Origin: a virus
Length of the DNA stretch: 44,940 bases
IMG/VR virus record: IMGVR_UViG_3300037963_002293
Coordinates: 25,356-70,295 of that record
Reading direction: 5' to 3' (one strand)
Shown here: positions 43,275 through 44,940 of the stretch, piece by piece
Numbering within the stretch: the stretch's first letter is position 1
How the letters are laid out: every line of letters begins with the position of its first letter
Position numbers and translations under genes: made by a program
The notes under the pieces: model-generated
The model's database searches: none
What the model saw: the letters and a program-made list of their open reading frames with translations, nothing else
What the model was told of the DNA's origin: nothing

Positions 43275-43978
43275 TTAATAATTTTTAATGGAAAGTAATT
43301 TGGAGACACTGTTTTGGGAGCAGATCTAATTTTGTTTGGTAGTTCACCAAACGATCGTGAACAATTTAGAGATGTAACTGACATAATAGTTTGGATTGTT
43401 TGATCAATCTTTTTAATTTTTTTAATGCCAGATAGGTCTTCATCATAGTTGATGATCTTTGCACCAGAACAAGAGAGTTTCTTGCCTGTCAAAAACAAAA
43501 GTTCATTGGTTTTTACGTTGATTAAAAACACTGACTTAGCGTCAATGATCTCCGTCTTGGAAACGGGAGTGTATTTTTCCTTTCCTAGTATAACAGGCTT
43601 TTGGATTAAGTGCAAGTCCTTCGTCAGTTGAGCTGGACTCTTCTTTCTCTTGCGTCGAACAATTTTTTTAGAATCTTTATATTTCTCTACGTCACTAATA
43701 AACCTTTCTAACAAGCACTTGAATTCCTTCAGTTCAGATTTCTTATAACAACCATAAGCTTCCACTAGAAACCTATCACCATTAAGAGCACCATTAACTT
43801 CATTTAAAAGATCGGTGACAAAATGAAATTTGTCTGATGTATATTCATTGATAGTTTTCCTATCAATATCTTCAGATTGTAGATACTTAAAAAAGTCAAC
43901 ACGAATTTTCTTCTTGGTAATTACATACTCATCAAGAATTGTATCTACAAATTGAGTGATTGTTTCCGTGCGAGTCAT
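43271..43978 (-). CDS. protein of unknown function (235 aa)
   Basis: Start taken at ATG 43978 (MTRTETITQFVDTILD), which overlaps the glutaredoxin stop as ATGA; the frame continues 14 codons upstream inside glutaredoxin. It is lysine-rich (KIVRRKRKKSP at about 123, a possible nucleic-acid-binding patch). The C-terminal half has short strands (SVFLINVKTNELLFLTGKKL, GAKIINYDEDLSGIKKIKKI) and then NCSRSFGELPNKIRSAPKTV. The latter half looks like a small beta-domain. I do not recognise a family. It lies in the speD-glutaredoxin group. Confidence 0.78.
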   Translation of the reverse strand: MTRTETITQFVDTILDEYVITKKKIRVDFFKYLQSEDIDRKTINEYTSDKFHFVTDLLNEVNGALNGDRFLVEAYGCYKKSELKEFKCLLERFISDVEKYKDSKKIVRRKRKKSPAQLTKDLHLIQKPVILGKEKYTPVSKTEIIDAKSVFLINVKTNELLFLTGKKLSCSGAKIINYDEDLSGIKKIKKIDQTIQTIMSVTSLNCSRSFGELPNKIRSAPKTVSPNYFPLKIIK

Positions 43979-44211
43979 AGGATTTTTTGTTCCTGTAAAT
44001 ACTGAAGGGTTTCTTTGCATCCACCAATGTGTTTCATTCCGATGGATACTTGAGGGAAGGTAGCACCTTCTCCAAATTCATCATAAAATTGTGACTTATC
44101 AAAATCTTTATTATACTTATATTCTAGATAGTCAATCTCAACTGCATTAAACAGTTGTTTAACTCTATCACACCACTGACAATTTTCTTTTGTGTAAACT
44201 ACTGCTTGCAT
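43975..44211 (-). CDS. nrdC: glutaredoxin (78 aa)
   Basis: Compact glutaredoxin fold: active site CQWC at residues 11-14 (YTKENCQWC), cis-proline region TFPQVSIG (about 52-59) and the GGC motif near the end (HIGGCKETLQYL). Phage glutaredoxins keep ribonucleotide reductase reduced for dNTP synthesis; the CQWC center differs from the usual CPYC. It overlaps speD by 13 bases and the 235-aa gene by 4. Symbol nrdC used by analogy with T4. Confidence 0.88.
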   Translation of the reverse strand: MQAVVYTKENCQWCDRVKQLFNAVEIDYLEYKYNKDFDKSQFYDEFGEGATFPQVSIGMKHIGGCKETLQYLQEQKIL

Positions 44212-44540
44212 TCTAAACTCCTGTCTATAGTTTTAGCTACAAAATCTTTTGCTTTCAATTTTCTACCCATGTAAATAGCACCCTTCTTTGGATTAGTATC
44301 ACCGCATGTAAATACATCACAAACTGCAGTTCCATTCTCAGGCCATGTATGGATACTGATGTGACTTTCTGCAAGAAGAGTAACTGCTGTAACACCCTGT
44401 GGAGAAAATTTATGTGACTGTGTTTTTAAAAATGTGGCACCCATGTGATTAGTTGCCTCAAACAAAGTCTTTCTTATATAGTCTTCATCATCTAGTAACT
44501 CTGCATCACACCCATATAAAGTGAAGAGTACATGTTTCAT
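44199..44540 (-). CDS. speD: S-adenosylmethionine decarboxylase proenzyme SpeD (113 aa)
   Basis: The prokaryotic AdoMetDC signature LLAESHISIHTWPE is present, with the Glu58-Ser59 self-cleavage site that yields the pyruvoyl cofactor, His60/His64, and a Cys in FTCGDTNPKKG (catalytic loop). Length 113 aa is typical of bacterial SpeD. It makes decarboxylated AdoMet for spermidine synthesis; a known cyanophage gene thought to supply polyamines for DNA packaging or host upkeep. It starts inside the 66-aa gene (ATGA). Confidence 0.92.
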   Translation of the reverse strand: MKHVLFTLYGCDAELLDDEDYIRKTLFEATNHMGATFLKTQSHKFSPQGVTAVTLLAESHISIHTWPENGTAVCDVFTCGDTNPKKGAIYMGRKLKAKDFVAKTIDRSLECKQ

Positions 44541-44754: not shown

Positions 44755-44783
44755 ATTCTACCAAAAAAGGGGAGTCTTTGCAA
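44755..44783 (-). promoter_or_regulatory. possible promoter before the 66-aa gene, overlapping the psbD terminator
   Basis: TTGCAA (44778-44783), 17-base spacer, TAGAAT (44755-44760) with an extended TGG. The -35 box lies in the terminator loop. Confidence 0.4.
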
Positions 44784-44791
44784 CCCCCCTT
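44763..44791 (-). terminator. intrinsic terminator after psbD
   Basis: AAGGGG (44786-44791 as read on the minus strand) pairs with CCCCTT (44767-44772), 13-base loop, followed by a TTTTTT run. It ends the psbD transcript. Confidence 0.8.
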
Positions 44792-44805: not shown

Positions 44806-44874
44806 TTATTTTTTCAGTCTGAATGGACAGTCAGGACATCCAGCACCACAGCATCCTTTAGAGAGCGTTACCAC
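44806..44874 (-). CDS. candidate 22-aa Cys-rich peptide, psbC-like start overlapping psbD
   Basis: GTG at 44872-44874 with a perfect AGGAGG 9 bases upstream (44884-44889), TAA at 44806. It reads MVTLSKGCCGAGCPDCPFR then LKK. The first residues MVTLS equal the start of cyanobacterial CP43 (psbC), which in hosts begins at exactly this GTG inside psbD. What follows is not CP43 but a CCxxxCxxC motif, similar to small zinc/iron-binding Cys motifs. An upstream ATG (44911-44913) in the same frame would give 34 aa. Unproven as a gene; the start is partly fixed by psbD coding (see findings). Confidence 0.45.
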   Translation of the reverse strand: MVTLSKGCCGAGCPDCPFRLKK

Positions 44875-44940
44875 GGGGTAGAACCTCCTCAGGGAATACA
44901 AAGTTCTCATGTGGTTGGTCAGCAGGTGCCATCCAAGCAC
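44858..44940 (-). CDS. psbD: photosystem II D2 protein PsbD, C-terminal end (window edge)
   Basis: Minus-strand frame open at the right edge, ending AWMAPADQPHENFVFPEEVL, then PRGNAL and TAA at 44858. This is the highly conserved C-terminus of D2 (host form AWMAPQDQPHE.FVFPEEVLPRGNAL). Cyanophages carry psbA/psbD to keep photosystem II repaired during infection. Only about 27 residues are in the window. Confidence 0.95.
   Translation of the reverse strand, partial: AWMAPADQPHENFVFPEEVLPRGNAL

Follow-up and report, generated by a model that had tools for sequence, protein, structure and literature searches.

A conserved cysteine-rich microprotein gene of cyanophages with a putative start signal inside psbD

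The psbD end of the window

The stretch of DNA analysed here (the window, 44,940 nucleotides) is part of a 70,295-base virus record, and its genes are similar to those of Synechococcus and Prochlorococcus phages. At one end of it, read on the minus strand, psbD closes with the codons ...FPEEVLPRGNAL and a TAA at 44858-44860. Within these last codons an ORF opens in the +1 frame at a GTG that the Arg CGT and Gly GGT codons of psbD create together. The GTG is followed by GTA ACG CTC TCT AAA and then by a Cys-rich stretch, GGA TGC TGT GGT GCT GGA TGT CCT GAC TGT CCA TTC AGA CTG AAA AAA TAA, which reads VVTLSKGCCGAGCPDCPFRLKK*, so that the predicted product has 22 amino acids counted from the GTG. 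A GAGGAGG, supplied by the Glu-Glu-Val codons of psbD, lies 9 nt upstream of the GTG. The features of the region are as follows.

44806..44874, minus strand: micro-ORF from the GTG, MVTLSKGCCGAGCPDCPFRLKK, with its stop TAA at 44806-44808; a conserved family, pN/pS 0.04-0.06 in psbD junctions
44815..44856, minus strand: conserved core GCCGAGCPDCPFRL (family GCCG[AS]GCP[DT]CP[FY]RP) with the motif CC-x3-C-x2-C, from family comparison and pN/pS
44872..44874, minus strand: proposed start codon GTG (Arg CGT + Gly GGT of psbD), at the same position as the Fischerella psbC start
44884..44890, minus strand: Shine-Dalgarno-like GAGGAGG in the psbD Glu-Glu-Val codons; GAGG occurs in 27/28 psbD ends with the peptide and 73/132 without
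44858..44940, minus strand: 3' end of psbD (photosystem II D2), from translation and similarity, cut by the window end
44767..44791, minus strand: terminator-like hairpin 3' of the micro-ORF; 1 found vs 0.5 expected in shuffles, weak on its own

A first-pass annotation of this DNA had described a GTG and a GAGGAGG within the psbD end, followed by a Cys-rich +1 frame, and all of these are present as described, on the minus strand. It had also recognized codons of CP43 in the residues MVTLS; the codons are there, but they are the +1 reading of the psbD RGNAL codons and give no independent evidence of CP43. Further 3' of the micro-ORF, two genes on the same strand (43975-44211 and 44199-44540) match phage glutaredoxin and S-adenosylmethionine decarboxylase (speD).

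A family of micro-ORFs in cyanophages

A degenerate pattern of the core matched at least 120 stretches in IMG/VR, and the junction of psbD with the CCxxxCxxC stretch was found in 35 IMG/VR stretches. In two close relatives of the window (L048 and L055, 98.5-98.9% identical over 1500 nt) the stretch is neither absent nor frameshifted. A tblastn search with the peptide returned 106 phage records at E<=10, all of them named Synechococcus phage or Cyanophage, and a search of whole records found a match in 10 of 12. Among the matches listed, and leaving aside a signal-peptide artefact described below, the core mostly overlaps the 3' ends of genes, namely psbD, gp23 and two small-protein genes near psbD (phrog_32637/275 and phrog_1811). 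The gp23 gene is annotated as the major capsid protein in S-RIM12, and the same context occurs in S-MbCM100 and in ACG-2014g, where gp23 is labelled head vertex precursor. ACG-2014g has the micro-ORF twice, behind gp23 and again downstream of psbD; the two copies are recorded as L403 2001 (KJ019071.1 ~111,623) and L406 1272 (~163,565), and L076 likewise holds two. In all eight isolate records whose feature tables around a copy were read, the micro-ORF is unannotated in its frame, and the open-licence PMC literature yielded nothing on the peptide.

As for the motif in host genomes, which the first-pass annotation had suggested searching, a longer pattern run over the genomes of 84,980 prokaryote species occurred only once, in an apparent phage contig (L272). 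Judged from its ORFs, this contig, assigned to a Rhodobacteraceae MAG, appears to be from a cyanophage. A host origin of the peptide was rejected on this count, the sole match in prokaryote genomes being phage-like. On the same contig the peptide (2698-2738) lies behind a Cys-rich protein of 265 amino acids that ends in ...VKISYM. We also rejected a de novo origin behind psbD. The earlier proposal that a peptide had evolved behind a captured psbC start does not hold, because the same micro-ORF overlaps the ends of several unrelated cyanophage genes, and so was not born there.

Since the search patterns had fixed some residues, pN/pS was counted at free codons only. For 13 distinct psbD junctions the ratio was 0.043, the same bases giving 1.7-1.9 in shifted frames, and for a larger set of 22 it was 0.055; over both sets, shifted frames gave 0.83-1.9. 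It was 0.078 in each of the two small-ORF classes (n=16 and n=13 distinct) and 0.38 in 31 distinct gp23 copies, in which A/S and F/Y alternate. Protein-level constraint is thus found in the micro-ORF frame at 0.04-0.08 in the psbD and small-ORF classes and 0.38 at gp23, and selection on the codons past the psbD stop, which had been proposed as a check, is borne out at 0.04-0.06. Because the Cys stretch recurs in cyanophages and shows these free-codon ratios in psbD junctions, it is not a chance reading. When the first half of the pattern was relaxed, GCCG was still present in 66 of 71 distinct sequences (all loci compared; at least 120 pattern matches), a figure that includes at least 14 cases of the signal-peptide artefact described below; of the other five sequences, one is cut by a contig end and four are apparent chance matches. 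On these comparisons, the micro-ORF is conserved as a protein and is a so far unannotated cyanophage gene for a Cys-rich peptide.

The artefact concerns a group of IMG/VR pattern matches (ATGAAAAAAATTATTGC...) in which the motif is read only in a frame other than that of a signal peptide, MKKIIASLVAAAAVALPA. In L014, L042, L046 and similar stretches, an unrelated phage protein has a signal peptide (MKKIIASLVAAAAVALPALSDP...) whose DNA gives GCCGSGCPTCPFRP when translated in another frame, and the match spans all 14 residues. Overprinting of signal peptide and motif was considered and rejected: because, in that gene family, members sampled without regard to the motif carry unrelated signal sequences, the look-alikes are taken as a product of coincidence and ascertainment. 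Most of them fall in the "other" pN/pS class, whose ratio was not used, and a few may remain in pooled sets; the classes used here (psbD, small-ORF and gp23) were assigned from the upstream gene ends and are unaffected.

With regard to known families, the nearest is DUF5522 (PF17653), matched below its curated cut-off. The peptide aligns with profile positions 33-47 of 48, the C-terminal third, which includes the Cys motif, whereas the first two thirds of the domain are absent from it. Scores range from 13.5 to 18 (18 as a peptide and 16.3 in the genome) against a cut-off of 25 bits, and matches below the cut-off also occur in 7 of 14 control genomes. The Oxidored-like domain of OXLD1 presumably has a similar CC-x3-C-x2-C motif and serves as a lead only; the peptide has no Pfam match to it. 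A longer form of the peptide (residues 2-31) matches the 41-position phage family phrog_10291 weakly (E 0.03), while the 22-residue form of the window gives no match, and this family may or may not be the same gene. The peptide found no match among solved structures.

The psbC start position and psbD codon choice

In cyanobacteria and plastids, psbC starts at a GTG within the 3' end of psbD. A passage on tobacco psbC gives GUG as its native start (PMC9845219), and a paper in the reference list there, Kuroda 2007, reportedly places the psbC start at the downstream GUG with a requirement for an extended Shine-Dalgarno sequence. In the one cyanobacterial junction that we compared, psbD-2/psbC of a Fischerella plasmid, psbC is annotated from a GTG at the position identical to that of the micro-ORF. 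The two arrangements share the GTG within the psbD end, the +1 frame and the Shine-Dalgarno-like GAGG in the Glu-Glu codons; the difference lies in the downstream product, which in the window is a Cys-rich peptide rather than CP43. The micro-ORF was accordingly rejected as a psbC: it has the start position, but it stops after 22 amino acids and contains no CP43 residues beyond the psbD overlap. A single query with 75 N-terminal residues found no CP43 in phages or viral contigs.

We compared 161 distinct psbD ends, dropping one row at a contig edge and counting L070 as lacking the peptide, which left 28 ends with the peptide directly behind psbD and 132 without. An in-frame start within the last five +1 codons is present in 28/28 ends with the peptide vs 71/132 without. 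Of those with the peptide, 26 have a GTG from Arg CGT and two (L032 and L138) use another Arg codon and have an ATG from Asn AAT, in frame two codons later. The CGT codon itself occurs in 26/28 vs 27/132. A start together with GAGG in the Glu-Glu-Val codons is seen in 27/28 vs 41/132 (Fisher 5e-11), or 15/16 vs 40/115 once identical 33-mers are collapsed (p 7e-6), both tests ignoring kinship. Even among ends with the peptide, few have the full GAGGAGG (4/29). An ATG further upstream (His CAT+G) is rarer with the peptide than without (11/27 vs 102/131); this depletion disfavours initiation at that ATG and favours the GTG. At the small ORFs an ATG or GTG mostly lies 5 codons before the core.

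A tree was built from 112 psbD rows (49 of the 161 were dropped, being the edge row and those with short upstream sequence). On it, the state of having the peptide behind psbD requires 8 changes, 7 of them forced by starred branches. Over the 7 independent pairs, CGT went with the peptide in 5.0 and against it in 0.1 (median p 0.0625, short of significance), and any start in 3.4 vs 0.0 (median p 0.25, also short of significance). For GAGG the figures were 1.1 vs 1.0 of 7 pairs, and its link to the peptide is therefore without independent support. The GTG within psbD is tied to the peptide through psbD codon choice. The first-pass annotation had called this start vestigial; most phage psbD without the peptide have no GTG, and the start is no passive vestige. 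Most likely, a peptide that arrives behind psbD takes over or preserves a signal missing from most other phage psbD genes.

Expression of the micro-ORF and competing readings

Comparison of the sequences shows that the family exists, how widely it is spread, that it is constrained as a protein and that psbD codon choice is linked to the peptide; translation of the micro-ORF and its coupling to psbD would follow as a probable reading of these results. The explanation that we prefer, and consider likely to be the right one, is a phage microprotein that is initiated from a signal within psbD, placed where psbC starts. Ribosomes would initiate at the GTG just before the psbD stop codon, the Shine-Dalgarno-like sequence in the Glu-Glu codons would serve this initiation, and psbD and the peptide would be made, coupled, from one mRNA. 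The gene itself is phage-borne, is situated at the ends of several unrelated cyanophage genes, and has come to lie behind psbD in several lineages. Its product, about 22 amino acids long here, is most likely a small protein acting on its own, in which CC-x3-C-x2-C would hold a metal ion or cluster, to judge from the cysteines.

The simplest rival holds that psbD alone keeps the GAGGAGG and the GTG, so that the +1 frame would be open only incidentally and would go untranslated. The first-pass annotation had itself cautioned that psbD could retain both signals, and this much stands: both can be encoded by psbD itself (Glu-Glu and Arg-Gly codons), and the +1 frame has an ATG, GTG or TTG in the 71 peptide-free ends counted above. 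However, the choice of CGT tracks the peptide, the two exceptions both carry an ATG, and pN/pS in the peptide frame is 0.04-0.06; we regard this reading as improbable, and the earlier suggestion that the peptide is translated from a host-like start signal within psbD as probable. Even harder to credit is a role of the stretch as nucleic acid, within a terminator or an RNA structure, with an incidental reading frame. The stretch does stand just before terminators, and at gp23 ends the terminator stem takes in the RP codons, but changes are mainly silent in the peptide frame, and the energy of the consensus RNA fold was no better than that of column shuffles (78/200 as low). With no conserved fold, an RNA element was rejected.

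A C-terminal extension, produced when ribosomes shift to +1 at the upstream stop (psbD, gp23 or the small proteins), would fit the almost constant +1 position of the core relative to the upstream gene. At gp23 the core follows in the +1 frame after spacers of 1, 4, 7 or 13 nt, the scan found no gp23 end with an out-of-phase 6-nt spacer, and within 25 codons no ATG, GTG or TTG occurs in 5 of the 31 distinct copies. Against it, no shared slippery sequence was seen, an ATG or GTG stands close by in the small-ORF contexts, and the psbD codon choice tracks a start codon that a frameshift would not need. Moreover, L035 and L121 encode the peptide behind gp23 in the other frame, where a GTG stands at the stop of gp23, and in L061 it is in the other frame with its own ATG. 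Frameshifting as a general account is, in our judgement, unlikely. As for a start codon in the frame of the micro-ORF, one is present in all 28 psbD ends and mostly so in the small ORFs, and it is not conserved at gp23; the five gp23 copies without a canonical start mean that one initiation scheme does not cover the family. An internal non-canonical start, a frameshift or a silent copy is possible for gp23.

A broader idea, which we put forward tentatively and hold to be doubtful, is that T4-like cyanophages have a mobile gene for a Cys4 microprotein, which relocates between late and photosynthesis genes, always to their 3' ends, and borrows local initiation signals: the ancestral psbC start at psbD, an ATG or GTG at the small genes, and at gp23 either a non-canonical start or a +1 frameshift. 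If so, expression of the peptide would depend on how much D2 or capsid protein is synthesized. What is at stake is a widespread, unannotated microprotein in abundant marine viruses, and a viral lineage that would keep the host psbC start signal in a captured photosynthesis gene and use it for a different product. Since psbD codon choice depends on the downstream neighbour, such a re-use can be tested directly. With the same tiny ORF arriving repeatedly at unrelated gene ends, including that of the major capsid gene, what does the peptide do during infection?

Among gp23 ends, 107 lack the peptide and 25 have it, the latter mostly drawn by the motif. In the gp23 copies the peptide frame often enters the terminator without a stop (e.g. 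L012, L017 and L401), and a frameshift or non-stop product at these ends is possible.
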